DNA of 20,746 nucleotides, taken from positions 1-20,746 of IMG/VR virus record IMGVR_UViG_3300009502_000240. One strand, 5' to 3'. The translations under genes were made by a program, and so were the position numbers. Below are positions 1-16,372 of this stretch, piece after piece (the stretch's first letter is position 1; each line of letters opens with the position of its first letter). Source of the DNA: a virus. The notes beneath the pieces are model-generated. The model saw only the letters and a program-made list of their open reading frames with translations, was not told the DNA's origin and ran no database searches.

Positions 1-217
1 ATAAACTATGTAAATTACCTATTTTTTCACTTAACTCTGTCACTGATTCCATCATTAGTTTATGTATTACATTAAGTCTATTGTTCTGATTTCCTGCTTT
101 TGCTAGCGCAAGTTCAATCTTAGATTGCATTTCTTCATATTCGGGATGTTCTTTTAGAAACTCACTACGAGCCTCTAAAGCAGCCGCTAATCCTGGTTTA
201 ATTATATTAAGTGTCAC
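1..217 (-). CDS. Hypothetical phage protein, C-terminus cut by window edge
   Basis: An open frame runs off the left edge; 72 residues are visible. It starts at GTG (217), which overlaps the polymerase stop by the four bases GTGA. A GGAG five bases upstream decides this start. The visible part is charged and probably helical, beginning VTLNIIKPGLAAALEARSEF, with an alanine- and leucine-rich segment and a later MMESVTELSEK stretch. I do not recognise a family. Its translational coupling to DNA polymerase suggests a replication-associated role, but that is inference. Confidence 0.75.
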   Translation of the reverse strand, partial: MTLNIIKPGLAAALEARSEFLKEHPEYEEMQSKIELALAKAGNQNNRLNVIHKLMMESVTELSEKIGNLHSL

Positions 218-2166
218 TTAATCTCCAATCCTAATAAAGGTGCTAGTTTTCTTAAATCTGTTTCTCCTTTTTCCTCCATCCATATTTCATTATGATGAAT
301 AACTTTAGTATCAATTCTCATAGTAGTTACTGGTATTTGTAGTATCTCTCTAGTAGCTTGTAACATTGCTTCCTCAACCCAATGTATTAACATACGTTCA
401 TTTCTAGCGGCACCTCTTACATATACAGCATCATGAAGACCACACATAACCTTAAGATTTTTTTCAACTAGTAAAGTTATTGCTCTTCTTGTAATTGAAG
501 CAGCATTACCTTGTACTGGGAAATTTCGAACACTTGTCATAACAGGATTATCGGGAAATAATACCCAACCATCATTAGTAATTAACGGAACACCGTCTTT
601 ATATCTTTCAGATAAGTCATAAACCCATTGCCAATAAGTTGAGAATGTATTTTTATGGGCTTGTATCAATTCTAGTGTTCGTTCAATTGTTACATCAGTT
701 TTGGTATCGAATTTTAATTTAGTCTGTAGTTTAACACTTCCCATACCAAACTGGAGCCCTAACACTGTAGATTTACATAGGTTTCTTTCAAATTTATGAG
801 AGCTTTTAGTTGCAGATTCTGGAACCATTCCAGCCATCTTAGCAAAGGCTAAATAAACATCTCCAGAATTATAAGCGTCTAATAGATTTTGATCTCCAGA
901 CAATATGGCAGCTACATAGACCTCTTGTTGTGAGAAGTCCGAACCAACAATGATTTCTCCTTCTTCCGGGTTAATGATTGCACGAAGCCAGGATGACATA
1001 GCGAGTGGGAACGTCTTAGCTTTCGCTGCATTTCGTCCAGTTTGTGTACCAAAAATACCAAAGTAAGGCCGTATATTGTTATCAGAACCAAACCTAGTAA
1101 AAAAGCCGTTTCCATTATCCCCCCTAAACCATTTAAGTGATGAATCTGTTTTATTGAACTTCCAAAGTTCTTCTAAACCTTCTCCATATGTAGAATAACC
1201 AAACTCTTCTAGAGTTTTAGAATCAGATTTGTATTTTCCAGTTTTAGTTTTAGGGAAATTTTGTATGTTTAAAGAACTTACATATACTTGATATGCATTC
1301 ATATCTTTATGAGCTGGTTCTGGTTTATAGTGGAATACATTACCATTCTTATATGTTTTTGGTGGTTTACAGGTTTCAGGTACAAAGAAAGGGAAAAACT
1401 TATTAACTGTTTCTTTATGTGAATCTAAGATTGCTGGAGTCTTTTCTATTATTTTATTAAGTAGTTCTACGTTAACTGGCATTCCTATTTGCTCACATAA
1501 AGCTGTTGCTACACTGTATCTACCACGTTCTAATTGATCTTTACGAACATCACAAATAGATTCCTTAAGTAAAGCATTAGTAATTGCAACATCTAAAGCT
1601 CGAAGATATCTAGTATCACTAGCACAATATTCTAGTATTTCATCCATATGCTCTTGAATCTTTTCAAGATCTTTAGATAAAATTAAATTTCTCATTTCGT
1701 CCTTGTATATAGAGTCTAATTTTACATCAAGCATTTTATATACAGCATTTACTAAATTATATGGAGTTTCTGAATGATCTTCCGTATCGTCCTCATCATC
1801 TAAAGCTGGATATGGTGGAGGAGTAGAATATCTAGAAAGACCTTCTTTATCTAAATATTTACCATATTGATACTTATGGTTACTGTTACATAGCATTCTA
1901 AATTCTACATATAAATCTACCCATTCATACTCGAGAGGATTTAAGCCCAAACTTAACATGGATCTAGCTTCAGCTGATGCAGCATATGCTAAAATAATTT
2001 TTTTATTTTTATAACCTTCTATTATTTCTATAAATTTATGTTTATGATTAACTAAATCAAATTTTAAAGTCTCAGTTGTAGATGTACAAATAACTCCGGC
2101 TACATTGAACTGATTCTTTTCATTTGAGTTAAAAAACTCAGTATCAAGAGCTAAAGTTTCTGTCAT
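214..2166 (-). CDS. Family-A DNA polymerase with 3'-5' exonuclease domain
   Basis: This is the replicative phage DNA polymerase of the PolA/T7 gp5 class, 650 residues. The N-terminal DEDD exonuclease shows its first motif at the extreme N-terminus (LALDTEF, D8 and E10), and SDTRYL near residue 182 fits the last exonuclease motif. Polymerase motif A is GSDFSQQEVYVAA near 410 (canonical DYSQIELR). Motif B is the RNLCKSTVLGLQFGMG stretch near 460. Motif C is GLHDAVYV near 577. The 5'-nuclease domain of bacterial Pol I is absent, as is usual in phages. Motif C reads HDA where Pol I and T7 have HDE, a variant I believe also occurs in some other phage polymerases. The start ATG overlaps the stop of the upstream gene (ATGA) and follows GGAGAGGG. 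The gene lies at the distal end of the early operon. The assignment is secure; processivity factors are unknown. Confidence 0.96.
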   Translation of the reverse strand: MTETLALDTEFFNSNEKNQFNVAGVICTSTTETLKFDLVNHKHKFIEIIEGYKNKKIILAYAASAEARSMLSLGLNPLEYEWVDLYVEFRMLCNSNHKYQYGKYLDKEGLSRYSTPPPYPALDDEDDTEDHSETPYNLVNAVYKMLDVKLDSIYKDEMRNLILSKDLEKIQEHMDEILEYCASDTRYLRALDVAITNALLKESICDVRKDQLERGRYSVATALCEQIGMPVNVELLNKIIEKTPAILDSHKETVNKFFPFFVPETCKPPKTYKNGNVFHYKPEPAHKDMNAYQVYVSSLNIQNFPKTKTGKYKSDSKTLEEFGYSTYGEGLEELWKFNKTDSSLKWFRGDNGNGFFTRFGSDNNIRPYFGIFGTQTGRNAAKAKTFPLAMSSWLRAIINPEEGEIIVGSDFSQQEVYVAAILSGDQNLLDAYNSGDVYLAFAKMAGMVPESATKSSHKFERNLCKSTVLGLQFGMGSVKLQTKLKFDTKTDVTIERTLELIQAHKNTFSTYWQWVYDLSERYKDGVPLITNDGWVLFPDNPVMTSVRNFPVQGNAASITRRAITLLVEKNLKVMCGLHDAVYVRGAARNERMLIHWVEEAMLQATREILQIPVTTMRIDTKVIHHNEIWMEEKGETDLRKLAPLLGLEIK

Positions 2167-2336
2167 AGTTTTCCCTCTCCACGTAACTTCTGTACATACA
2201 TATATACTATTCCTAAAGAGTCTTTTGCTTTATTACCTTCTTCTATAAGAGCTTCATCTTCCAGTTGTTCCAGAATAAAGTTTAAAATATCCTCTAATTC
2301 TCGTATATTATGTTTTGCTTCTTTATAAATTGTCAT
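2163..2336 (-). CDS. Small hypothetical protein, 57 aa
   Basis: ATG at 2336 and TGA at 2163-2165, overlapping the upstream and downstream genes by ATGA on both sides, so it fills the gap exactly. GGAG lies about ten bases upstream of the start. The product (MTIYKEAKHNIRELEDILNF at its N-terminus) is highly charged, predicted all-helical and possibly coiled-coil, with heptad-like leucines and isoleucines. No family is recognised. Tight coupling to polymerase is the only functional hint. Confidence 0.75.
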   Translation of the reverse strand: MTIYKEAKHNIRELEDILNFILEQLEDEALIEEGNKAKDSLGIVYMYVQKLRGEGKL

Positions 2337-2500
2337 TGTCTAACTTCTCCAAAATACACTGCTATTGCAAGTAAAACAACCAGTATAACGTAGATTATAT
2401 CTATAAATAAATCAGTTAAATCCCTTTTAGTAAAAAGTTTTAGTGTTTCAGATAATATAAGAAATAATACGCAAAGTAGGCAAGCTGTTATAAGATTCAT
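2333..2500 (-). CDS. Small two-helix membrane protein, 55 aa
   Basis: The preferred start is the ATG at 2500, because GAGG lies five bases upstream of it. An ATG at 2521 would add seven residues but has no ribosome site. Two hydrophobic segments are visible: LITACLLCVLFLIL near residues 3-16 and IIYVILVVLLAIAVYF near 34-50, separated by a charged KLFTKRDLTDLF linker. The product should sit in the inner membrane. It could be holin-like, but its place between a lipoprotein and DNA polymerase in an early operon makes a membrane-remodelling or superinfection role at least as likely. It overlaps the next gene by ATGA. Confidence 0.72.
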   Translation of the reverse strand: MNLITACLLCVLFLILSETLKLFTKRDLTDLFIDIIYVILVVLLAIAVYFGEVRQ

Positions 2501-2510
2501 TACTTCCTCG

Positions 2511-2786
2511 TTACTGATCATCTTTAATCAGTTTAAGTAGCTTTGTGTCATTACATACTTCGGACAGTTGTCCTACATAAGAATTACCATATAAAGAAAA
2601 AGAAACATCTCCATTAGGCAATATATTTAGTTTATATCTTTCACATTTTTGTAAAGCTGCTTTGTTTATTGCTGTTTCCTTTGTATACGGTCGAAGGGTG
2701 TCAGACTCGTATTGAATACAACTAGAAAACAGTCCAAAACTTAAAAGAGCGCACATGCGCACTATTACTTTTTGATTATTTTTCAT
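2511..2786 (-). CDS. Predicted lipoprotein, 91 aa
   Basis: The N-terminus is a type II signal peptide: basic n-region (MKNNQKVIVR), hydrophobic core (MCALLSFGLF) and a lipobox-like LFSSC with the acceptor Cys at residue 23. The mature part is about 69 residues with two further Cys residues that could form a disulfide outside the cytoplasm. The start at 2786 follows GGAGG at good spacing and overlaps the stop of the upstream gene by ATGA. It precedes a two-helix membrane protein. Phage lipoproteins expressed early are often superinfection-exclusion proteins (such as T5 Llp, known), whereas Rz1-type spanins lie in lysis cassettes. Here there is no lysis neighbour, so exclusion is favoured by inference. 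Confidence 0.8.
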   Translation of the reverse strand: MKNNQKVIVRMCALLSFGLFSSCIQYESDTLRPYTKETAINKAALQKCERYKLNILPNGDVSFSLYGNSYVGQLSEVCNDTKLLKLIKDDQ

Positions 2787-2941
2787 TGTTCACCTCCACC
2801 CCAACACGAATCAAAAGACCATCCTTTGAATGTTGTTGCAAGCATCTTATTTAGTTTTTTATCAAAATCTGAAAGGTCTAAAGCCTCCATATAAAATGTC
2901 CTGGTTTTTTCTTCTTTAGATATCCATATTTTAAATTTCAT
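2783..2941 (-). CDS. Small hypothetical protein, 52 aa
   Basis: ATG at 2941 with AGGTAGGAC just upstream; the TGA at 2783-2785 overlaps the lipoprotein start. The product begins MKFKIWISKEEKTRTFYMEA and ends in a Trp-, Cys- and Gly-rich tail (GWSFDSCWGGGEQ). The C-terminal GGAGGTGA codons double as the ribosome site of the lipoprotein gene. No family is recognised. Confidence 0.72.
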   Translation of the reverse strand: MKFKIWISKEEKTRTFYMEALDLSDFDKKLNKMLATTFKGWSFDSCWGGGEQ

Positions 2942-2952
2942 AGTCCTACCTA

Positions 2953-3117
2953 CTAATTAGAAGATTCTTCTTTATCGTCTATATATTCAAGATCAAGTCG
3001 CAAATCTTCAATCATCTCATTAAATAGTTGATCCCTGCTAAGATTTGGGTTTTCTTGCAAAATCATATCAATAAATGCTCTATTATCATCAGTTAACTCT
3101 AAAATTATAAATTTCAT
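2953..3117 (-). CDS. Small acidic hypothetical protein, 54 aa
   Basis: ATG at 3117 preceded by a strong AGGAGGAG, overlapping the previous stop by ATGA; it ends at TAG 2953-2955. The product is strongly acidic, with the C-terminal half dominated by Asp and Glu (EDLRLDLEYIDDKEESSN), and probably helical. Short acidic early phage proteins sometimes act as DNA mimics or host-enzyme inhibitors, but nothing specific supports that here. Confidence 0.75.
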   Translation of the reverse strand: MKFIILELTDDNRAFIDMILQENPNLSRDQLFNEMIEDLRLDLEYIDDKEESSN

Positions 3118-3698
3118 AAATCTCCTCCTGAGATTACTTTAATAACCTCTTCGTATGAACTTCTGGATTGAATACGATATAACATATTAATATTTGCTGC
3201 CAGGTGTGCTAGATGACTCAATCCACTATCAGATGCGGATTCCTCACCACCTATATAAGCTAAGAAATGCCTCATAGAAGCGTCTATAAGCTCACCAGCG
3301 GCTTCAGAAGTCATCAGCCTAAAATTATCCACACCGTGTTTCTTCTGCCCAAAACGGAACACCTGACCTATTTCTAATAGAAATTTAGGGTTCAATGCTC
3401 TCATGTGAGGTTTGTCAGACATATCTCCTTTACCGGTGATACCGAGTATATCAGATTTCATTTCTCCTCTCACTTCTGGGCTAGGTGTTTTCAATTCATT
3501 ATCCTCATCTGGGATGATAAATTCAACAAAATCATCCTTATTTTGCTTTTTCTTTAAATCATTAATTACGTGGTATAAACACATAGTATGTGAATCTAAT
3601 ACTTCTCTTAGAATTGATGGATTTAGTCGTTCAGGTGGTATTGTTTGTAATGCAGTTTTAATATTAGTTAGTCTTTCTATTTCTTTTTCATTGTTCAT
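3114..3698 (-). CDS. dATP/dGTP diphosphohydrolase-like protein (DUF5664 family)
   Basis: 194 residues. The segment from about residue 100 (RALNPKFLLEIGQVFRFGQKK), through HGVDNFR and ELIDASMRHFLAYIGGEE, to SGLSHLAHLAANINMLY is the pattern I associate with the phage family called DUF5664 or dGTP diphosphohydrolase N-terminal, an all-alpha MazG-related fold. The conserved Glu/Asp/His residues of that core are present. The N-terminal 90 residues are variable and charged. The expected role is hydrolysis of a purine dNTP to the monophosphate in nucleotide-pool remodelling. GGGAGG precedes the ATG, which overlaps the adjacent MazG-like gene by ATGA. Family membership comes from memory of the motif pattern; the substrate is unproven. 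Confidence 0.78.
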   Translation of the reverse strand: MNNEKEIERLTNIKTALQTIPPERLNPSILREVLDSHTMCLYHVINDLKKKQNKDDFVEFIIPDEDNELKTPSPEVRGEMKSDILGITGKGDMSDKPHMRALNPKFLLEIGQVFRFGQKKHGVDNFRLMTSEAAGELIDASMRHFLAYIGGEESASDSGLSHLAHLAANINMLYRIQSRSSYEEVIKVISGGDL

Positions 3699-4006
3699 TT
3701 ATTACCTCCCTTATGTCTATCTTGCAGTTTCTTAAATACTTTTTCTTCAAGTTCATTGATATCTGTTCCTAACTCATCACAGGCTAAATGAACAAACCAT
3801 ATTACATCAGCTAATTCATTTTCTAATTCGGATTTCCACCCTGGTTTATCATAAAATATGTTTTTATGTATGATTTCGAGAAACTCTGCAGCTTCTAATG
3901 AAATACCCATAGCAGCATGTAACATCCTCATATTGCCAACTAGTTTAGCACGTTTAGTATCTGTATAGTTAGTTTCAGTTAAAAGAAGTTCTTTAGTTGT
4001 TACCAT
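3695..4006 (-). CDS. MazG-like nucleotide pyrophosphohydrolase
   Basis: 103 residues, the length of a single-domain MazG-like enzyme. The metal-binding signature is visible: E38, E41 and E44 in SLEAAEFLE, and E64 with D67 in ELENELADVIWF, matching the EExxE-(12-28)-ExxD pattern of all-alpha NTP pyrophosphatases. The enzyme would convert a (d)NTP, or an alarmone in some phages, to the monophosphate plus pyrophosphate in the cytoplasm. It directly precedes a second pyrophosphohydrolase-like gene, so the two probably act together on nucleotide pools. The start has only a weak GTGAG ribosome site, two bases after the previous stop, so translation is probably coupled. Confidence 0.85.
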   Translation of the reverse strand: MVTTKELLLTETNYTDTKRAKLVGNMRMLHAAMGISLEAAEFLEIIHKNIFYDKPGWKSELENELADVIWFVHLACDELGTDINELEEKVFKKLQDRHKGGNK

Positions 4007-4008
4007 TG

Positions 4009-4194
4009 TTAACTCACTGTAAAATTTAGGTTTTCAAACGGTATTACCCTAACACTAAAAGGCCACACACCGGCATTTGACTCATAAATTGAACGTAAAA
4101 TATATGGGATTGTACCGTTTAGATTGTTATTATGAACAAAATTCAAAAATCGTTTTGTTTGTAATGCTATCATCTCTGGTGTTGCTTGTCCCAT
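4009..4194 (-). CDS. Small hypothetical protein, 61 aa
   Basis: The chosen start is ATG 4194 (MGQATPEM). A TTG 12 bases upstream would add four residues but overlaps the TTGGAGG that serves as the ribosome site. The product has a basic N-terminal half and ends in SVRVIPFENLNFTVS, probably beta. No family is recognised. It lies immediately upstream of the MazG-like gene. Confidence 0.7.
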   Translation of the reverse strand: MGQATPEMIALQTKRFLNFVHNNNLNGTIPYILRSIYESNAGVWPFSVRVIPFENLNFTVS

Positions 4195-4206
4195 ACTAAC
4201 CTCCAA

Positions 4207-4683
4207 TTATCCTAGCTTCTGATAGGAATAACTCATTCGTATATTATAGTAAAAATAACTGCCTGCTGAAGATGCTTCTTCCCATTCCATTACTGTATCA
4301 ACTGGAACCCCTGAATAACTATATGTAGAACCAGACTTAAAACTAACTACTAGGTATTGTTTATCTACCCAGTAAGTAGATGATTGTATGGTTGAAGATG
4401 GTTTAGTTTTAACGTTAGTATTAGCTTTACTAAATCGTTCTATTTCTCCGGGTTTAAGAGATTCTTCAGGATCTTTTTCATCCTCAATTTTACCATCTCT
4501 AATTATTAATCTTCTACCTGAAGATTTAGAACTTCTTGTAGATAATCCTTGCTGTTTAAGAAAGGCTGTAGGTATATTAAACTTTAATGTATCTGCTTTA
4601 AAATCAGCGTGATACACATTCTCTGAACCTAGTTGTTTATATAAGTCTTTAAGTAAATCTTCATAACTTGTATTAATTGCCAT
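4207..4683 (-). CDS. KTSC-domain protein
   Basis: 158 residues. The C-terminal 60 (from about STYWVDKQYLVVSFKSGSTY through YSYSGVPVDTVMEWEEASSAG to FYYNIRMSY) match the KTSC domain (lysyl-tRNA-synthetase C-terminal-like). This small fold occurs alone in many phages and is of unknown biochemical function. The N-terminal 90 residues hold a Ser/Lys-rich linker (STRSSKSSGRR) and look partly disordered. AAGGA precedes the ATG. The domain call is confident; no activity can be assigned. It lies in the small-gene part of the early operon. Confidence 0.8.
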   Translation of the reverse strand: MAINTSYEDLLKDLYKQLGSENVYHADFKADTLKFNIPTAFLKQQGLSTRSSKSSGRRLIIRDGKIEDEKDPEESLKPGEIERFSKANTNVKTKPSSTIQSSTYWVDKQYLVVSFKSGSTYSYSGVPVDTVMEWEEASSAGSYFYYNIRMSYSYQKLG

Positions 4684-4692
4684 ATAAATTCC

Positions 4693-4920
4693 TTAAGGTA
4701 GATTACTCCAAGATTTCCATATAACATTTTTACGAGGTTTATCTTCCTTATCTTCCAAATAAAAATCAGGAATACCCGTAAGATCGTCTACTTCTGGGTA
4801 AGCTCCAGCATAGGTGTTAGAAAATAGATTTAGTTTTTCTTTTTGTTCTTTATATCTTAGGTTTTTCTTAGCTTTGATTCTTTCCTTATTTTGTTGATAA
4901 TACTTCTTTTGGTCAGTCAT
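4693..4920 (-). CDS. Small hypothetical protein, basic N-terminus, 75 aa
   Basis: GGAG lies eight bases upstream of the ATG. The N-terminal 30 residues are Lys/Arg/Gln-rich and helical (KKYYQQNKERIKAKKNLRYK), of the type seen at the start of phage HNH and zinc-binding proteins. No Cys or His cluster follows, so no HNH motif is present. The second half is acidic. It could bind nucleic acid through the basic helix; this is inference only. Confidence 0.68.
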   Translation of the reverse strand: MTDQKKYYQQNKERIKAKKNLRYKEQKEKLNLFSNTYAGAYPEVDDLTGIPDFYLEDKEDKPRKNVIWKSWSNLP

Positions 4921-4924
4921 GTTA

Positions 4925-5116
4925 CTACTCCGTTCTATGACGTTTCTTTTGAGAACGTATATGTTCTTGAGAGAATGAACCTTCCCATGTTGTCCATTCA
5001 GTTATTAAATCAAAACTCATATTTATCTTACATTGTACACACGAATACCAATACTTTAGAGGTACAACCTTCTCCTTATTACATATTTTACATTTTATTT
5101 TATGCGTTTGTCTCAT
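4925..5116 (-). CDS. Small zinc-ribbon protein, 63 aa
   Basis: Two CxxC knuckles are present, CKIC (residues 9-12) and CVQC (about 26-29), 13 residues apart, which is the layout of a four-cysteine zinc ribbon. The rest includes a Trp/Thr segment (ITEWTTWEGSF) and a basic C-terminus (RSQKKRHR). The start overlaps the previous gene's stop by ATGA, and only a weak GTGAAG lies upstream. Phage zinc ribbons of this size often bind nucleic acid or host transcription proteins; the target here is unknown. Confidence 0.75.
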   Translation of the reverse strand: MRQTHKIKCKICNKEKVVPLKYWYSCVQCKINMSFDLITEWTTWEGSFSQEHIRSQKKRHRTE

Positions 5117-5346
5117 TTCTTCACCCGTACTTCTTTTTTAAGCGCTAAGAAATAACTGGTAGGATCATCTATTAAACCATAAAAAATAAATATTTTTTTA
5201 GGGTTTGCTTCATTAAAAATTCTTACATATTTTTTAGCTATATCTTCTGAAGATGTTAACAGTAGTTTACCGCTATCTGTTGTTAATGGAACCAGTTTTG
5301 GAAAATTATCGGTTATATCTAATACTAGTACTGCACTCTTAGCCAT
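5113..5346 (-). CDS. Small hypothetical protein, 77 aa
   Basis: AGGAG lies six bases upstream of ATG 5346. The predicted pattern is mixed alpha/beta (SAVLVLDI, then IFIFYGLIDDPTSYFLALKK) ending in a basic KKEVRVKK. No family is recognised. It overlaps the zinc-ribbon gene by ATGA. Confidence 0.7.
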   Translation of the reverse strand: MAKSAVLVLDITDNFPKLVPLTTDSGKLLLTSSEDIAKKYVRIFNEANPKKIFIFYGLIDDPTSYFLALKKEVRVKK

Positions 5347-5348
5347 AA

Positions 5349-5693
5349 TTATCTCCTGTTTGATAAATCAATATCCAACACACTATATATGGTGTTGTCA
5401 ATATCCACTCCTACGTATTTACAATCTGTTCTATTATAATGTTTTAATGTGAATTCTTGGCCATGTTCTATTTTAACCCTTTCGGTTATATCTTTGCTTG
5501 ATTCTACTTCATCATTTATAAATCTACCTGTTTTTGAATAAGTAAAATCTGTAAGTTTACATTTAAAAGTATACTTGTTTTTATAATTACCTTCTGGTTC
5601 GTCCTTATAAAGTAAGACTAATTTTCTATTTTGAATCTTTCCCTCTACTTCTTCACCCCTAGTCCTATATAGGACACTAGTTTTTATAATCAT
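5349..5693 (-). CDS. Hypothetical protein, 114 aa
   Basis: AGGA lies seven bases upstream of ATG 5693. The sequence is beta-rich with many alternating hydrophobic and charged residues (RKLVLLYKDE, YTFKCKLTDFTY, CKYVGVDIDNTIYSVLDI), suggesting a small beta-barrel or sandwich. It has two cysteines. No family is recognised. Confidence 0.7.
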   Translation of the reverse strand: MIIKTSVLYRTRGEEVEGKIQNRKLVLLYKDEPEGNYKNKYTFKCKLTDFTYSKTGRFINDEVESSKDITERVKIEHGQEFTLKHYNRTDCKYVGVDIDNTIYSVLDIDLSNRR

Positions 5694-5702
5694 ATTAGTA
5701 TC

Positions 5703-5963
5703 CTATACACCAGGTGTTGTAGGTTTAGGTTGTATCTTATATAACATACTAACCCGTTTGTTATGTTCTTCCCTTAGATTACGATTACTACATTCTCTCA
5801 ACCATTTTTTATGGTTAACCCAGTCTGTTATAACCCCATCTTTTACTGGTACATTACCGTATTTTTTAATACGTTCTAATGCATATGTACTAAGGGATAT
5901 TACATTCTCTCTTTCATTGAAAAGTGACCATATAAAATCACCTATAGACATTGTAAAGCTCAT
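5703..5963 (-). CDS. Hypothetical protein, 86 aa
   Basis: ATG 5963 overlaps the upstream stop (ATGA) and follows AAGGA at six bases. The product is basic with several Trp residues (GDFIWSLFNE, DWVNHKKWLRECSNRNLREEH) and a helical centre, ending in a proline-rich KPTTPGV. It could be a nucleic-acid-binding or host-interaction protein; no family is recognised. Confidence 0.7.
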   Translation of the reverse strand: MSFTMSIGDFIWSLFNERENVISLSTYALERIKKYGNVPVKDGVITDWVNHKKWLRECSNRNLREEHNKRVSMLYKIQPKPTTPGV

Positions 5964-6163
5964 GACAAATCCTTTTTTATTTGCTCCTGTACCATTTGAA
6001 AACGTTCTTGTTCTAGTTTAAACAACTCACGTTTAACATTTAGAAGCTGATTCTCTGCCTCAATTACTTGGTTCTGTAGGTATTCTCTATCTACTGTAAC
6101 GCTGTGTTTACCACCTTTAAAAATCATATATAAAACAACCCCAATTAGTATAACCCAAACCAT
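5960..6163 (-). CDS. Small membrane-anchored coiled-coil protein, 67 aa
   Basis: Residues 2-15 form one hydrophobic segment (VWVILIGVVLYMIF). A basic GGKH follows, then about 45 residues of heptad-like coiled coil (YLQNQVIEAENQLLNVKREL and onward). The topology resembles an i-spanin or Rz-type anchor, but the gene lies in the early operon away from any lysis gene. AGGGGAAG precedes the ATG, which shares one base with the previous stop (TAATG). Function unknown. Confidence 0.72.
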   Translation of the reverse strand: MVWVILIGVVLYMIFKGGKHSVTVDREYLQNQVIEAENQLLNVKRELFKLEQERFQMVQEQIKKDLS

Positions 6164-6387
6164 TACACTTCCCCTTTTAATTGTCTCTTTAGTGAATCTA
6201 TATATTTTTTGTCCATATATTCAAAAAGAGTTGCCCCGATAAAATTCTTACTTTTCTTATTCTTAGCCGTACTGTAAGCTATAGTTAACTCTATAAATGT
6301 TTTATCTTCTCTAAGTAGATTAGTAACTTCATTTATAGTTATCATCGCTTTATCTTTCTCAGCCTCAGTCATATCATTTAATTTCAC
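6163..6387 (-). CDS. Small hypothetical protein, 74 aa, GTG start
   Basis: GTG 6387 is chosen because GGAG lies about eight bases upstream; the ATG at 6372 has no ribosome site. The product is charged and helical (MTEAEKDKAMITINEVTNLL, then LTIAYSTAKNKKSKNFIGAT). It overlaps the end of the upstream gene by 14 bases in another frame. No family is recognised. Confidence 0.7.
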   Translation of the reverse strand: MKLNDMTEAEKDKAMITINEVTNLLREDKTFIELTIAYSTAKNKKSKNFIGATLFEYMDKKYIDSLKRQLKGEV

Positions 6388-6553
6388 TAGGTTTCTCCAT
6401 TAATTTTTGTAGTTCAAAAGAAATTTGTTTCTGTAAATCTCTATCTAAATCTTTAAACATAGCCCAGATAACTGTATTTAAAGAATAATTACAATCGTTA
6501 CAGAGCTCTATAGCTCTTTTAGCTAATTCCTTAGCTCTACCAAGGTTTTCCAT
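6374..6553 (-). CDS. Small helical hypothetical protein, 59 aa
   Basis: ATG 6553 follows a GAGGTGG ribosome site; the TGA is at 6374-6376. The product begins MENLGRAKELAKRAIELCND and is predicted all-helical with an amphipathic second half (LQKQISFELQKLMEK). Its tail carries the ribosome site of the next gene. No family is recognised. Confidence 0.72.
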   Translation of the reverse strand: MENLGRAKELAKRAIELCNDCNYSLNTVIWAMFKDLDRDLQKQISFELQKLMEKPSEIK

Positions 6554-6701
6554 TTAACCACCTCATCATTTGTTTATAAGTGTTGCCATATACTAAACAA
6601 CCACGTTTTTTTACTTGTTCCGTTAGAATAGGATTACCAAGAAAGTTTAACCAACTCTTAGTACATTTACGATAATCTCTAAGCATTACTTTTAGGTACA
6701 T
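6537..6701 (-). CDS. Small basic hypothetical protein, 54 aa
   Basis: The start is set at ATG 6701 (MYLKVMLRDY) because GAGGGG lies seven bases upstream. An ATG at 6722 would add seven residues but has no ribosome site and would overlap the previous gene. The product is basic and aromatic, with two Cys residues and a C-terminal WLNGKPW. It overlaps the next gene by 17 bases. No family is recognised. Confidence 0.66.
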   Translation of the reverse strand: MYLKVMLRDYRKCTKSWLNFLGNPILTEQVKKRGCLVYGNTYKQMMRWLNGKPW

Positions 6702-6705
6702 ATTG

Positions 6706-6915
6706 TTACCCCTCATATCCATGATCCCAATCTACACTGTAGAAGGCATCTTGTTCAGATTCCAATGGAATAATTTTATAACCTGCAAGATCTCGTTCAA
6801 CATCAACAATTACATCCCCAGGTTCTATTTTAGTACTTGTTCTTATGTAGTAGGTTTTAGATACTCCGAAGCATTTTTCATAATAATAAGCACGAGTTAA
6901 AATATATGTTGTCAT
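6706..6915 (-). CDS. Small hypothetical protein, 69 aa
   Basis: ATG 6915 overlaps the upstream TGA (ATGA) and follows GGGTGG. The pattern is beta-rich: YILTRAYYYEK, YYIRTSTKIEPGDVIVDVE, then an acidic end (DAFYSVDWDHGYEG). No family is recognised. Confidence 0.7.
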   Translation of the reverse strand: MTTYILTRAYYYEKCFGVSKTYYIRTSTKIEPGDVIVDVERDLAGYKIIPLESEQDAFYSVDWDHGYEG

Positions 6916-7139
6916 GATCCACCCTTTACTAGAGAAAATAGGTTTTTCTTCAAAAGTTCTAGAAATGCTTTATTACTTAATTCTACTCTTAAAGCAAGTC
7001 CAAGATCATTAAGTTCATAAATCTTAGGATTTTCTGACATAATAGTCTTAACTAGAACTTTATCATGGTTTAGTTCAAATCCTGTATCATTTGATGATTC
7101 AAGTGCTGCATCAAAGTCTTCAGATTCTTTCTTTTTCAT
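6912..7139 (-). CDS. Small hypothetical protein, 75 aa
   Basis: AAGGAG lies eight bases upstream of ATG 7139. A charged N-terminus (KKKESEDFDAALESSND) is followed by a helical, leucine-rich second half (ELNDLGLALRVELSNKAFLE). No family is recognised. It is the second gene of the early operon. Confidence 0.7.
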   Translation of the reverse strand: MKKKESEDFDAALESSNDTGFELNHDKVLVKTIMSENPKIYELNDLGLALRVELSNKAFLELLKKNLFSLVKGGS

Positions 7140-7150
7140 GACTAATCTCC

Positions 7151-7312
7151 TTAGTGTTCAAATCCATAGATAGTTTCTAAGAAATCTATTAGATTGTCTG
7201 TAAACGGGTCAAATCCCATATCAACAATATCAACTGCAAGGTCTTCAATAGAAGATAGACTACCGAACTCATTTACCAGTAGTTTAACAGTTTCATTATA
7301 TAGTGTTTCCAT
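7151..7312 (-). CDS. Small acidic protein, first gene of the early operon, 53 aa
   Basis: ATG 7312 follows AGGGGGAAC at ideal spacing; TAA is at 7151-7153. The product begins METLYNETVKLLVNEFGSLS and is strongly acidic (IEDLAVDIVDMGFDPFTDN), probably three short helices. It is the first cistron behind the consensus sigma70 promoter and the long structured leader, so it is likely one of the earliest and most abundant products. First early phage genes often encode host-takeover factors (anti-restriction or RNA-polymerase inhibitors); this is inference from position and charge. Confidence 0.75.
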   Translation of the reverse strand: METLYNETVKLLVNEFGSLSSIEDLAVDIVDMGFDPFTDNLIDFLETIYGFEH

Positions 7313-7558
7313 ATTGTTCCCCCTAATTAGTTGAATATGAGGCTAACACTGATGTGCAAGTAATTAGTAGTGTCTGTTTTAAGGTGGGATTTAAAAGCAG
7401 ATATATATATATATTGGTAGGCTATATTGATTATTACTCGCACGTCAGTGATATTCTCACTGTCCGGGTCACGGTAGGCATTGGCCTCCATCCGGTGCGG
7501 CATCCCTGGTTAAGTTTGTTCTTCCCCGGTTCATCTGCCAGAGGATATTTCTTCCTCT
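7313..7558 (-). ncRNA. Long structured 5' leader or regulatory RNA of the early operon
   Basis: Between the sigma70 promoter and the first early gene lie about 245 transcribed bases without a convincing ORF. The promoter-proximal 120 bases are 63/120 G+C, in a clearly AT-rich genome. Helices on the minus-strand RNA, in window positions: 7558-7553 with 7545-7540 (six pairs, at the very 5' end); 7529-7525 with 7468-7464 (CCGGG/CCCGG); 7497-7492 with 7474-7470; 7487-7484 with 7479-7476; 7462-7457 with 7451-7446 (CAGTGA/TCACTG, five-base loop); 7401-7391 with 7382-7373 (ten pairs and one bulge); and a long-range 14-position helix 7450-7437 with 7360-7347 (12 Watson-Crick pairs, one G-U, one mismatch). 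The last competes with the CAGTGA hairpin, as in riboswitches and attenuators. I could not match it to a known class. Confidence 0.7.
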
Positions 7559-7564
7559 TTATAT

Positions 7565-7593
7565 AATATAACACATAAGAAACTTGTTGTCAA
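7565..7593 (-). promoter_or_regulatory. Consensus sigma70 promoter of the early operon
   Basis: On the minus strand TTGACA (7593-7588) is followed after 17 bases by TATATT (7570-7565). The predicted start is near 7558, exactly at the base of the first leader hairpin. It faces the small-gene operon and lies just after the stop of the helicase gene. Confidence 0.88.
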
Positions 7594-7640: not shown

Positions 7641-9161
7641 TTAGCATTGAGGCATAACCTCATCAATTGATTGTTGTTTTTTTTCTTTCATTCCTAAGAA
7701 TAATCTACCGTCGCATAATACATTATGTTCACTTCTTAACCATTGTTTAAAGTTATTTTTAGCAAACTTATCCTTGGAAAATTGCTTAGTTAGGTTAATT
7801 AAGATATCGGTCATATCACATTCACTATCTTTACATATTTCGTATTTAGGTTCAACATATTTCTTATAAAAGTCAGCAAATACACTATCTTGTACTAGAT
7901 CTCTCATACTTTCGAATACAGAATCATGATTAGGGGTTTTTTGTATAAGACCACCGCTATTTTTTACTTCAAGGATGTCAAAGCATTGACGACAATAATT
8001 TAAAAATTCATTATTAGTTGTTTTTAAGTCATTTAAATACATCTGCAAACTCATAGTGTTATTATCTAAATCAACAATAGGTTTAACACGAAAGAATCTT
8101 AAACGTCTACGTTCATCTGCAGTATTAGCACATTCAAGGTCATAGTTACTATCAACAAATAACAACCCACGAATTTGACTAGTAAAAGCATCTTTATTCT
8201 TACCTTCAATCTGTACTAAGTTACCACCGGTGATAGATTTTAATACTTTATTTTGCATAAGATGAGTAGTAGTATTTTCTTCAATAGATATAATAGCTTT
8301 ACCAAACATATTGTAGTAGTTAAAAGTAGTATTGGCGTCAAAAGAAGCAAAGCTCTTAGTTAATTGTCCTAAATACAATATGAACCCAGTTTTACCATCA
8401 CCTCCAAATCCTCTCATATAATTGACGTAGGGTAACATATTTCCTATTAGATGTGACCAAATAATGGCACATAGATATTGATGATGTTCTACCCTAGATA
8501 AGAATGATTGCATTGTCTTAGCTAAGTCAGTAAATACTACATCTTGTTTCTTATAAGGTATTGTTGACAAAGCAAATTCACATAATCCTTCTAATCCTAC
8601 TGTTTGAGGATCATTATCTAATTTAATCCTAGGTAGGGTTAATTGAGGGTGTGTAGTATTTATTATAGTAGTTACTGTATCCTCTAACGATACATTAGCT
8701 AGGCGTTTCTTACCTGAAAAAGGTGATAATTTAGTATATAATTCCTGTAACAAATCAGCTTCATATTTACATAGGTATTCTAAAGCAAATCTAGGGTTGT
8801 CAAATGCCCCTAAGGTACAAACACCATGTATAGAAGTTATATTTACCCCTTTAACAAGCTCTGTAGAGCGATAATAGACCAGTGTGTTAGACCCAACGAC
8901 ACTTACTATAAAGAAATTTTTAAGAGGCTGTGCTGCCAATATAATAGCTTCTATTTGATTATCTGTATCTTCTTCACCATCATTAGAAATCTTACGGGCA
9001 ACTTCTTTAAGTTCTATTACCTCTTGCCTAGCAGCTTTGATAGACAAATCTTCATCACGAAGTAAAACCTCTTGAAGTATATCTTCATCGGATAGCGCTT
9101 TAGACCCTTTCTTATTCTTATTGTAAAACTTACCATTGTTAAATTTTAAGAACATTTCCAT
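7641..9161 (-). CDS. D5-like / SF3 replicative helicase (primase-helicase C-terminal type)
   Basis: 506 residues. The Walker A loop is GFGGDGKTGF near residue 254, followed by Walker B-like KAIISIEEN near 292. The sensor/motif C region LLFVDSNYDLE leads to TADERRRLRFFRVKP, the typical ending of D5/SF3 phage helicases (TN..P..D...RRR..F.P). The N-terminal 200 residues do not show clear primase catalytic motifs, so priming may come from another gene. The expected role is ATP-driven unwinding at the replication fork beside the family-A polymerase. The start ATG follows AGGGGG and overlaps the end of the upstream DNA-binding-like gene. Transcription most likely comes from the leftward motifs at 9628-9650 and 9786-9808. 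Confidence 0.9.
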   Translation of the reverse strand: MEMFLKFNNGKFYNKNKKGSKALSDEDILQEVLLRDEDLSIKAARQEVIELKEVARKISNDGEEDTDNQIEAIILAAQPLKNFFIVSVVGSNTLVYYRSTELVKGVNITSIHGVCTLGAFDNPRFALEYLCKYEADLLQELYTKLSPFSGKKRLANVSLEDTVTTIINTTHPQLTLPRIKLDNDPQTVGLEGLCEFALSTIPYKKQDVVFTDLAKTMQSFLSRVEHHQYLCAIIWSHLIGNMLPYVNYMRGFGGDGKTGFILYLGQLTKSFASFDANTTFNYYNMFGKAIISIEENTTTHLMQNKVLKSITGGNLVQIEGKNKDAFTSQIRGLLFVDSNYDLECANTADERRRLRFFRVKPIVDLDNNTMSLQMYLNDLKTTNNEFLNYCRQCFDILEVKNSGGLIQKTPNHDSVFESMRDLVQDSVFADFYKKYVEPKYEICKDSECDMTDILINLTKQFSKDKFAKNNFKQWLRSEHNVLCDGRLFLGMKEKKQQSIDEVMPQC

Positions 9162-11275: not shown

Positions 11276-11445
11276 AATATTATTGGGGAGTATTGAAGAT
11301 TAAATGGTGGGTATTAAAGATTAATATCCGGGCTCTTCTAAGAAAGATTCCTATATTAGATAGATATTATAGAAGAAAAGCTGAGCGGATGGCTGAAAAA
11401 ATGTTTAATTGTAAGATAATAGATATTAAAGATGTGAAGTGGTAA
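11272..11445 (+). CDS. Small basic hypothetical protein, 57 aa
   Basis: ATG 11272 overlaps the previous stop by ATGA; TAA is at 11443-11445, one base before the next start. The product begins MKYYWGVLKIKWWVLKINIR and is very basic and tryptophan-rich, containing RYYRRKAERMAEKM. The amphipathic N-terminal segment may associate with a membrane. No family is recognised. Confidence 0.72.
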   Translation: MKYYWGVLKIKWWVLKINIRALLRKIPILDRYYRRKAERMAEKMFNCKIIDIKDVKW

Positions 11446-11446
11446 C

Positions 11447-11905
11447 ATGACAAATTTAATTGATTTAGTTACTATACGTGAATTTAAAGAAGGGGATATA
11501 AACTTCTTATTAAGTAGTTTTATAGGTTGTTTGTCTCAGTATCATGAATCAATGTTTAAAGGTTGGTTGTCTAAAGATATTCATGAACATTTAGAACAAG
11601 TTATATTATATGCATTGGTTAAACTAGATTATAGTGCATGGATAGCGGCTAATAAAGATGATACAGATACAATCATAGGATATATAATAGGAGACCCTAA
11701 ACGTAACCACATATTCTTTAATTATACTAAGTATTCATTTAGAAAGCTTGGTATACAACAGAACATGTTATTACCTCTGATTATAGACCCAAGTCAGTTA
11801 GTTACTATTAACTGGCAAACTAAAGAAGCCCTTAAACTACATAAAAAGTGCGGATACATAGTTAGAAACGTATTTTTAGAACAAATAATGGAGTTAAGTA
11901 GATGA
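11447..11905 (+). CDS. GNAT-like acetyltransferase domain protein, 152 aa
   Basis: The order of elements fits a GNAT fold: TIREFKEGD at the start, AWIAANKDDTDTIIGYIIGD (beta strands 3-4), FNYTKYSFRKLGIQQNMLLP (the acetyl-CoA loop region, degenerate because the canonical RxxGxG is KLGIQ), and EALKLHKKCGYIVRN (the typical final helix and strand, like A.rLYeklGF). Similar proteins sit beside terminase genes in other podoviruses. The substrate is unknown, and the altered pyrophosphate loop leaves open that it is no longer an active enzyme. Confidence 0.65.
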   Translation: MTNLIDLVTIREFKEGDINFLLSSFIGCLSQYHESMFKGWLSKDIHEHLEQVILYALVKLDYSAWIAANKDDTDTIIGYIIGDPKRNHIFFNYTKYSFRKLGIQQNMLLPLIIDPSQLVTINWQTKEALKLHKKCGYIVRNVFLEQIMELSR

Positions 11906-13533: not shown

Positions 13534-15366
13534 ATGGGCAAGATTGACCAACATTATCCAGATTGGATTGATAGTAAATTTAAAGAGGCTCATGTAGCTC
13601 TACTAGCACAAGTAGAAGACTATAATAAGAATATAAGTAACTCAGTAGCTCAAAACTCTTTAAAGGGTTTACGTCAATATACTGGTAGAGGTATATCATC
13701 ATTACATGCTGCTGGTTATATGAGTGATGTTGATGTTAATGCTCAATTAGGAATGTCACCTGCTCAAGCTAAAGTAAACTTCAACCTAACAGCTAGTGTA
13801 ATAGATACACTTACTGCTAAATTAGCATCTATTGATACTATACCACAATCAGTTACTTTTAAAGGTAATCCAAAAGGACGTAACCTAGCAAGAGACTTAA
13901 ACTTTATTCTTAAAGGATTATTTCATAAAAAGAATTTATCACATATGATTAATTTAATTTATCGTGATGCTATGATTAATCGTGCAGGGTATCTTAAAGT
14001 TGTTGTTGAAGATGGGGATGTAATAATCGATAGAGTTATGGTCGATGAGATTATAGTAGATCCAGCCGACGGATATTATAACAACCCATATAAGATGATT
14101 CATCGTAAAGCTATACCACTACATGTAGCGTTGGCTAAGTGGCCAAAGTTTGCTAAAGATATCGAAGGTTGTCAGATTCAAGAAGTTCGTCAGTATAATA
14201 CTCGTAACTATACACCTTGTATTAATGTTATTGAAGCTTGGTGTAAGAATTCCTATGTAGGTGGTGGTCGTCATGTTATTGCTATTGAAACTAAAACTAT
14301 AATTGATGAAGACTGGGATAAGGATTACTTTCCTATTTTACGTTGTTCTTATAGTGAACCAGTAATTGGTTGGTTGGGGCAATCTGTAGTTGATGAACTT
14401 GACCCCATTCAAAAAGAAATTGACCGTATACTTATTACAATGCAAGCAATACTTAAACTTATTAGTATTCCTAGAGTATTTGTAGATACTAACTCACAAG
14501 TTAATAAGAACCACATAACCAATAAACTTGGTGTAATAATTGAATATGATGGAAAAAGCGGTGTAGCTCCTATTATTCATAATGGTGCTTCTATGCCTCC
14601 AGAACTACCAACTCAATTAGAATTTCTAATAGCTCAAGGTTATGCTCGAGTTGGCTTAACTTCTATGGATACACAAGGACAGAAACAAGCTGGATTAGAT
14701 AGTGGTGAAGCTCTTAAGACTATGAATGATATTAAGAGTGAAAGATGGCAACTACTACAAAAGAACTATGAACGTACACATGTTGAGCTTGCTAATTTGA
14801 TTCTTAAAGAGTTACAAGGAACTAATATTAAGATACCTGCTCTTGATAAGAAAATTGGGTTGGTTGAAATTAGTACTAAACGTATTCCAAAGACTGATGA
14901 TAGTTATATTCTAAAAGTATTTCCTATTAGTGCATTACCTGATAGTATCCCAGATAAAATAGATGCTGTAGAAAAACTAATGAAACTTGGGGTTATTCCA
15001 GCTTCCCATGTTCCTGACCTATTTCAAATGCCTGATCTTGATTCTTATTTAACTATGCAATCTGCTCCACGTCAATTAATCGAGGAACGTATTGCAGATA
15101 TGTTGGAAGAAGGAACCTATTTTAACCCTGAACCTTATCATGACCTTGATTTTGCTCTATCTCACGCATTACAGCAATATTCTTTTGGTCAATTACATCA
15201 TGAACCAGATTCAAAACTTAAACTTTTAAGATCGTTTATTAACGATGTTAGAAATCTACTGTCACAACGTATACAGCCAGTAGCCCAACAACCAGTTCAA
15301 CCACAAGGAGCAAATAATGGTGGAACAAGTAGCGGTGTCCCAGGACAACCAACTTCAGGACAGTAA
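13534..15366 (+). CDS. Portal protein
   Basis: 610 residues, in the position and size of a podovirus portal, with AGGAG six bases upstream. Recognisable features are an N-terminal helical region, a core with VIEAWCKNSYVGGG and FPILRCSYSEPVIGWLGQSV, a helix-rich segment VDELDPIQKEIDRI, and a tail with KMNDIKSERWQLLQKNYE-like helices (around 400), then a Gln/Pro/Gly-rich flexible C-terminus (QPVAQQPVQPQG onward). The dodecameric channel would sit at the capsid vertex. The last 50 bases overlap the scaffold gene in another frame. Assignment rests on order and pattern, not on a single motif. Confidence 0.88.
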   Translation: MGKIDQHYPDWIDSKFKEAHVALLAQVEDYNKNISNSVAQNSLKGLRQYTGRGISSLHAAGYMSDVDVNAQLGMSPAQAKVNFNLTASVIDTLTAKLASIDTIPQSVTFKGNPKGRNLARDLNFILKGLFHKKNLSHMINLIYRDAMINRAGYLKVVVEDGDVIIDRVMVDEIIVDPADGYYNNPYKMIHRKAIPLHVALAKWPKFAKDIEGCQIQEVRQYNTRNYTPCINVIEAWCKNSYVGGGRHVIAIETKTIIDEDWDKDYFPILRCSYSEPVIGWLGQSVVDELDPIQKEIDRILITMQAILKLISIPRVFVDTNSQVNKNHITNKLGVIIEYDGKSGVAPIIHNGASMPPELPTQLEFLIAQGYARVGLTSMDTQGQKQAGLDSGEALKTMNDIKSERWQLLQKNYERTHVELANLILKELQGTNIKIPALDKKIGLVEISTKRIPKTDDSYILKVFPISALPDSIPDKIDAVEKLMKLGVIPASHVPDLFQMPDLDSYLTMQSAPRQLIEERIADMLEEGTYFNPEPYHDLDFALSHALQQYSFGQLHHEPDSKLKLLRSFINDVRNLLSQRIQPVAQQPVQPQGANNGGTSSGVPGQPTSGQ

Positions 15367-16138
15367 ACCTGAAGAAATCAAACAAGAAGTTAAAGTTAAT
15401 GAGGAATCTCCTAAGGATGATAAACTCACTGAACAGTTTCATAGACTCTCTAAACAAGAAGCACATACTCGTGAACAACGTAAACAGTTAGAAGAAGCTA
15501 GGAAAGCTTTTGAGTCTGAACGTTCATTAGCAGAAGAAATGAAAATTATTAAGGCTTTACGTTCATCTGACCCAGTAGCTGTACTAGAAAAGTTAGGGCT
15601 TACTGTTGATGAATTAAATAAAGCTCTTAATGCTCGTAACCAACCTAGTGATCCTATAAGTGCTAGATTGAAACAATTAGAAGAAGAATTACAATCTGAA
15701 AAGAAACAAAAGAAGGCTTCTGAAGAAGTTGCTAATAGAGAGCAAATGCATCGAGCTGAAGTGTCTTTAAATGCCGAGATTGACAAAGTAATCAAGGAAA
15801 AGGATTATGACCTGATCCCAGCTTTAGGTATGCAGAAAGAGGTTTTAAACTTCATGGAAGAGATTTATGAATCTACTGGTGAAGTACCATCCGTTGATGA
15901 AGCCTGCAAGGCAGTTACTGATCATATTGTAGGATTATATCAGACAGCATCTAAAAGCAAATGGGTTCAACCTAAAGTTGAGGAACCTAAAGTTGAGGAA
16001 CCTAAAGAGGTATCATCGAAGTCTATAACAAATAAAATGGCTCAGTCGATGGATATTAAGAGGTCTGAGAAACCAGCTACAGATGCTGACAGACTGAAAG
16101 CGGCAATTCATGCTATGGAAGCTACCAAGAGCAAATAG
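15317..16138 (+). CDS. Capsid scaffold protein
   Basis: 273 residues of mostly charged, heptad-rich coiled coil (EQFHRLSKQEAHTREQRKQL, later KQLEEELQSEKKQKKASEEV), acidic and low-complexity, in the slot between portal and major capsid protein. This is typical of scaffolds. A tandem 15-base repeat at about 15970-16005 encodes PKVEEPKVEEPKE. The ATG lies inside the portal gene, with AAGGAG six bases upstream, so the two proteins share about 50 bases. The C-terminal LKAAIHAMEATKSK is a plausible capsid-binding helix. It is followed by an intrinsic terminator. Confidence 0.82.
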   Translation: MVEQVAVSQDNQLQDSKPEEIKQEVKVNEESPKDDKLTEQFHRLSKQEAHTREQRKQLEEARKAFESERSLAEEMKIIKALRSSDPVAVLEKLGLTVDELNKALNARNQPSDPISARLKQLEEELQSEKKQKKASEEVANREQMHRAEVSLNAEIDKVIKEKDYDLIPALGMQKEVLNFMEEIYESTGEVPSVDEACKAVTDHIVGLYQTASKSKWVQPKVEEPKVEEPKEVSSKSITNKMAQSMDIKRSEKPATDADRLKAAIHAMEATKSK

Positions 16139-16143
16139 GTTAA

Positions 16144-16217
16144 TAATTGATCTAGATCAAGTCTTAGGAAGCTTTTGAGAAGAAAGTAGACTAGTAATTG
16201 ATCCAGATCAAGTTTAA
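16144..16217. repeat. Twin direct repeats containing TTGATC palindromes
   Basis: TAATTGATCTAGATCAAG (from 16144) and TAATTGATCCAGATCAAG (from 16195) lie 51 bases apart. The first contains the perfect 14-base palindrome TTGATCTAGATCAA, and the second differs by one base. Each holds two GATC sites. The spacing is close to five helical turns, which fits two operators on the same face of the DNA. Confidence 0.75.
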
Positions 16218-16248
16218 GACTGTTTTTAATCATAAAGCAGTCTTTTTT
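16216..16248 (+). terminator. Intrinsic terminator after the scaffold gene
   Basis: AAGACTG (16216-16222), a 15-base loop, CAGTCTT (16238-16244), then a T-run. It is a standard Rho-independent form ending the protease-to-scaffold transcript before the capsid promoter. Confidence 0.85.
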
Positions 16249-16340
16249 CATGTTTTTTACACACCAGAGTTATTAGCTAATACCAATATGTTTAATTGAA
16301 AAATCGTCTAACTCTTTAATAAAAAATCAGAGTACCCTCC

Positions 16341-16372
16341 AAAACGGCCTCTATTTACTGTGAGGTGTTTTT
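16341..16372 (+). terminator. Weak hairpin with T-run, possibly bidirectional
   Basis: AAAAC-GG-CCTC pairs with GAGG-T-GTTTT across a ten-base loop, with one bulge. A T-run follows on the plus strand, and an A-run precedes it, so it might work in both directions. It is weaker than the terminator at 16216. Confidence 0.45.

Follow-up and report, generated by a model that had tools for sequence, protein, structure and literature searches.

The window analyzed here, a 20,746-nt (20.7-kb) metagenome-derived virus record, carries on its minus strand, at 7313–7558, a 246-nt structured element that lies between a near-consensus promoter and a long early operon. We interpret this element as the 5′ leader of the early operon, in which a stem at the 5′ end precedes a structured but variable body and a processing module at the 3′ end, an interpretation to which we give slightly less than an even chance. 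Among the schemes considered, a leader RNA ending in a processing module (a ribozyme motif in sister phages, a long hairpin here) is the best supported, because the fold goes beyond chance, leaders occur at a like place in related phages, and the leaders of sister phages contain hammerhead motifs. The leader has the appearance of a fast-changing and probably cut-off RNA rather than that of a classical metabolite switch.

Promoter and Genomic Setting

The promoter (7565–7593, minus strand) is of the sigma70 type, with a −35 element TTGACA (7593–7588), a 17-nt spacer, and a −10 element TATATT (7570–7565) preceded by TG; it matches at 11 of 12 positions and is the top minus-strand promoter in the stretches scanned. 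From its position, leftward transcription would start near 7558, where a 5′ hairpin has its base, and the first ATG (7312) lies 246 nt from this putative start. The initial annotation had described a near-consensus promoter at the hairpin base, a gap of about 245 bases before the first gene, and an operon of more than 20 genes downstream, all of which are borne out: approximately 22 ORFs, with the DNA polymerase gene last, occupy a single strand (214–7312, minus strand). The first of them (7151–7312, minus strand) encodes 53 amino acids, has no PHROG match, and is preceded by the Shine–Dalgarno sequence AGGGGGA (7318–7324, minus strand). Further along the operon (3114–4006), neighboring genes match the dATP/dGTP pyrophosphohydrolase and MazG-like pyrophosphatase families. 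A primase-like gene (7641–9161, minus strand) lies immediately upstream of the leader and served as a positional anchor for relatives. A 58-aa ORF within the leader (7327–7503) was treated as non-coding, as it has neither a usable ribosome site nor a PHROG match.

Fold of the Leader RNA

The leader (7558–7313) folds at −70.5 kcal/mol, compared with −49.4 ± 4.2 kcal/mol for dinucleotide shuffles (z = −4.99; none of 200 shuffles as good), and its GC-rich 131 nt folded alone still gave a z of −4.64. When the entire window was scanned, the leader ranked among the strongest 130-nt segments but was not unique, and fold energy alone is not a proof because segments with comparable bias exist elsewhere, some of them inside genes. 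A non-coding gap amid the structural genes (16121–16364) displays a strong fold bias on either strand. The leader had also been described as GC-rich against its surroundings, which holds for its promoter-proximal part (0.45–0.54 at 7400–7499 and 7450–7549, vs. 0.23–0.35 in the surroundings) but not for its 3′ third.

The predicted RNA opens with a 5′-terminal stem-loop, AGAGGA-(7)-UCCUCU (7540–7558, minus strand), which begins at the putative transcription start and would shield the 5′ end. Folding then places a second stem-loop, GGCA...UGCC, at 7499–7539 and a third, with stacked CGG/AUGG/AGGC, at 7464–7495 (both minus strand), and the approximately 100 nt after the 5′ stem-loop would form a compact multi-helix body. 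The final part would adopt a long, slightly imperfect hairpin of about 24 pairs that ends about 13 nt before the Shine–Dalgarno sequence and is built around an inner hairpin, UCUGCUUUUAA...UUAAAACAGA (7372–7402, minus strand), which caps the long helix. This long-range helix joins a 5′ arm at 7460–7433 to a 3′ arm at 7364–7337 (minus strand): 24 of the 28 positions pair, four mismatches break the helix, and its ungapped score of 17 was equaled by none of 400 shuffles, whose maximum was 13. The helix previously proposed at this place, of 14 positions (7450–7437/7360–7347), is therefore real and larger than claimed.

With its length of about two helical turns and its position ahead of the first gene, the long hairpin has the structure expected of an RNase III-processed phage leader. 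RNase III processes the lambda N-leader and T7 early RNAs (as cited in PMC5371410), and the window leader likewise belongs to an early operon and has a long hairpin close ahead of its first gene. By analogy, this hairpin is a candidate RNase III-type processing site, and most likely a cut there by the host enzyme would part the leader from the 22-gene mRNA. The 5′ end of the early mRNA would thereby be defined, and a short, stable, free leader RNA would be left, perhaps acting itself. The resemblance to the lambda N-leader is limited, as a nut box was not identified in the window and the first gene encodes an acidic protein rather than an Arg-rich, N-like one. A pairing of first gene and leader resembling N/nut was likewise rejected, the first gene products not being Arg-rich.

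Leaders of Related Phages

The polymerase and primase of the window have distant relatives in Silvanigrella phage CP017838, and its terminase has relatives of 54–66% identity in IMG/VR; a terminase profile search of genome contigs yielded no relative. No leader relative was detected in the region upstream of the CP017838 polymerase. That record contains the same gene stretch more than once (22669–25296, 31731–34358, and approximately 37800), possibly an assembly artefact. Five relatives that share terminase and primase reach the leader position, namely L018, L019, L024, L025 (an identical stretch is present in L023), and L017. The leader lies between the primase and the early genes in four of them and several ORFs further on in L017. 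In all five, the putative leader RNA begins no more than a few bases downstream of a sigma70-like promoter, the −10 element of which is poor in L025.

These leaders differ in sequence from that of the window, the body of which matches none of them. Sequence searches in phages, plasmids, and the loci of the relatives did not find a homologue of the window leader, nor was an exact 29-nt leader pattern found in genome contigs. The leaders of L024, L025, and L017 are better folded than shuffles (z of −4.2, −2.8, and −3.4, respectively), whereas those of L018 and L019 are overall no better folded than shuffles. None of the relatives' leaders reaches the cut-off of an Rfam family. As in the window, the L024 and L025 leaders start near the base of a stem. 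They have in common a 5′ module spanning about 109 nt, a single closed domain whose closing stem starts near the transcript start, and a 69-nt core of this module is 92.8% identical between the two phages, compared with 68–78% (DNA) for most of their genes. Three stem pairs of the module are changed on both sides, a comparison of two sequences only for which the shuffle control is weak (52/500). A covariance model of this module (R1) gave no match to the window leader with filters off. The layout of the L018 and L019 leaders resembles the module by eye, but R1 finds L019 only at an E-value of 7.7, so that homology is not established. A common motif, CAACA..GATGTGCTCT, scanned across viral contigs, returned the known leaders only, the other matches being chance occurrences in other sequence. 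L018 and L019 resemble the window in that a long hairpin forms the final module ahead of the first gene.

Hammerhead Motifs in Sister Phages

In three of the five relatives (L024, L025, and L017), the 3′ end of the leader contains type II hammerhead motifs according to a strict core descriptor (CUGANGA and GAAA core strands, stems I–III, and a UH cleavage site), and shuffling the six leaders 2000 times produced no such motif in any set. Rfam hammerhead models gave sub-threshold matches in the L024 and L025 leaders and none in that of L017. A Shine–Dalgarno sequence follows closely downstream of the motif in all three. The L025 leader (11276–11515) has a tandem pair of motifs, of which the second carries a large stem III insert; stem II strands of one copy could also pair with those of the other. 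Judged from sequence, these sister-phage leaders end in predicted self-cleaving ribozymes, which, standing at the same place as the long hairpin of the window, would be the counterpart of its processing.

The closest published context is that of HHphage in haloviruses HF1/HF2, where a hammerhead lies 13 nt upstream of the start codon of an early helicase (Perreault et al. 2011, PMC3088659). The sister-phage motifs are similarly located at the leader 3′ end, near an early-gene start codon; they differ in being attached to further structured modules. The window leader itself differs from HHphage in having no hammerhead core: CUGANGA is absent, which also excludes non-circular hammerhead permutations (PMC10085705), and there is no Rfam hammerhead match at E-values up to 10.

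A Replaced Domain in Two Near-Identical Phages

L018 and L019 differ at one position in the 4545 nt upstream of and into the leader. An internal leader block of about 40–60 nt (L018, 4545–4585; L019, 5284–5345) is then wholly different, and the next 240 nt or so are again almost identical. The closing pairs of the block, read from the sequences, change together (CUGU/ACAG vs. CUAC/GUAG). Unless one of the contigs is a metagenome assembly chimera, the block would mark a single RNA domain that has been exchanged or has diversified locally. In L018 (5115–5150), the 3′ half of the final leader hairpin recurs together with the ribosome site where the first early gene ends, ahead of the second.

Alternative Explanations

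The initial annotation had taken the competing helices as the mark of a switch, attenuator, or riboswitch. The mutual exclusion that it noticed is confirmed, as bases 7460–7440 are common to the long helix, to the CAGUGA/UCACUG hairpin (7446–7462, minus strand), and to an alternative closure, GCAC 7498–7495 / GUGC 7443–7440, that is present only without the long helix. Forbidding the long helix raises the fold energy from −74.2 to −62.2 kcal/mol, and given this preference of about 12 kcal/mol the CAGUGA hairpin is best viewed as an early-forming, co-transcriptional intermediate: in modeled transcript prefixes, the hairpin and the GCAC/GUGC closure form and are both displaced once the downstream arm is made. 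The model thus describes ordered folding toward a single stable state, not a balanced switch. In a riboswitch, two states of nearly equal energy would be expected, with coupling to a terminator or to the Shine–Dalgarno sequence. Here the states are far apart in energy, no terminator-like site was found within the leader, which also led us to reject intrinsic attenuation, and excluding the long helix shifts the mean pairing of the Shine–Dalgarno bases moderately, from about 0.6 to about 0.7. The leader has no credible Rfam family at the gathering cut-off or at E-values up to 10, in agreement with the earlier failure to match any riboswitch or ribozyme class and extending to small RNA families; unlike a conserved aptamer, for which covariation across genomes would be expected, the element was not found in the loci of the relatives, in phages, or in plasmids, although it may be conserved outside these collections. 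A riboswitch, thermosensor, or attenuator governing the first early gene, to which the exclusive helices and the moderately higher Shine–Dalgarno pairing would lend themselves, is thus possible but unsupported, and we consider it improbable. The observation as a whole (promoter, structured leader, and exclusive helices) stands, without the switch drawn from it. The companion suggestion, that the element is a structured leader or a regulatory RNA and may be a processed small RNA, gains support from the fold statistics, from the lack of an Rfam match, from the leaders that follow a promoter in the five related phage genomes, and from the hammerhead motifs in three of them.

The best cis-acting rival is a put-type antiterminator RNA, as in HK022: the two leading stem-loops would bind the RNA polymerase that transcribed them and allow read-through of the long early operon. 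PutL is about 70 nt long and consists of two stem-loops that begin at the start site, immediately after an early promoter (PMC9378689); the window transcript is also predicted to open with two stem-loops, at +1 to +60, ahead of the 22-ORF operon. This likeness of position and layout is not accompanied by a credible sequence match in the phage records searched, the relatives' 5′ modules are laid out differently (one closed 110-nt domain), and terminator-like sites in the operon are few and not above chance, so that we regard this analogy as unlikely. Slightly better placed, while still unlikely, is the reading that the leader site carries a trans-acting regulatory RNA, set free from the early transcript, that would serve as a sponge, decoy, antisense, or immunity RNA. 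Sister hammerhead motifs would release the leader, and the domain replaced between L018 and L019 is what a specificity domain would be expected to show, insofar as it is not an assembly chimera. In addition, the purine-rich L017 leader (14560–14830), which is followed by its type II hammerhead motif, has GGA in six candidate hairpin loops versus 1.7 expected, resembling CsrA-binding sponges of the CsrB/RsmZ type. The replaced domain and the GGA-loop pattern make a trans function of a freed leader plausible. Nothing in the window indicates a target, however, and the window leader differs from these sponges in that GGA is weakly enriched and not in loops; a CsrA sponge was rejected for it on this account. 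Finally, the promoter, the inverted repeat, and the AT-rich (TA)n tract could act as DNA, as a transcript-primed replication origin. An inverted repeat with a TA-rich spacer does adjoin the primase gene, but the AT-rich stretch is absent from the L024, L025, and L017 leaders, and fold bias and ribozyme motifs are features of RNA, which makes an origin very improbable.

The interpretation as a leader with a 3′ processing module also has points against it: the window leader has neither a hammerhead nor the relatives' 5′ module, four mismatches break its long hairpin, no homologue was found that would lend its structure covariation support, and the relatives are few, with structure that is unequally clear among them (L018, L019).

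A Possible Modular Design of Early Phage Leaders

These data suggest, more tentatively than the leader interpretation itself, a modular early-leader RNA in which a promoter-proximal stem is followed by a quickly diversifying, exchangeable domain and by an interchangeable release module, either a type II hammerhead or a long hairpin. Such an arrangement could yield a free phage RNA acting as a determinant of specificity, for example, in phage–host or phage–phage conflict. A hammerhead motif or a long hairpin at the end of early leaders would make a specific role for phage ribozymes directly testable, namely the release of a leader RNA together with the definition of the 5′ end of the early mRNA. 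The domain exchanged between near-identical phages further suggests that diversifying selection can act on leaders of this kind.
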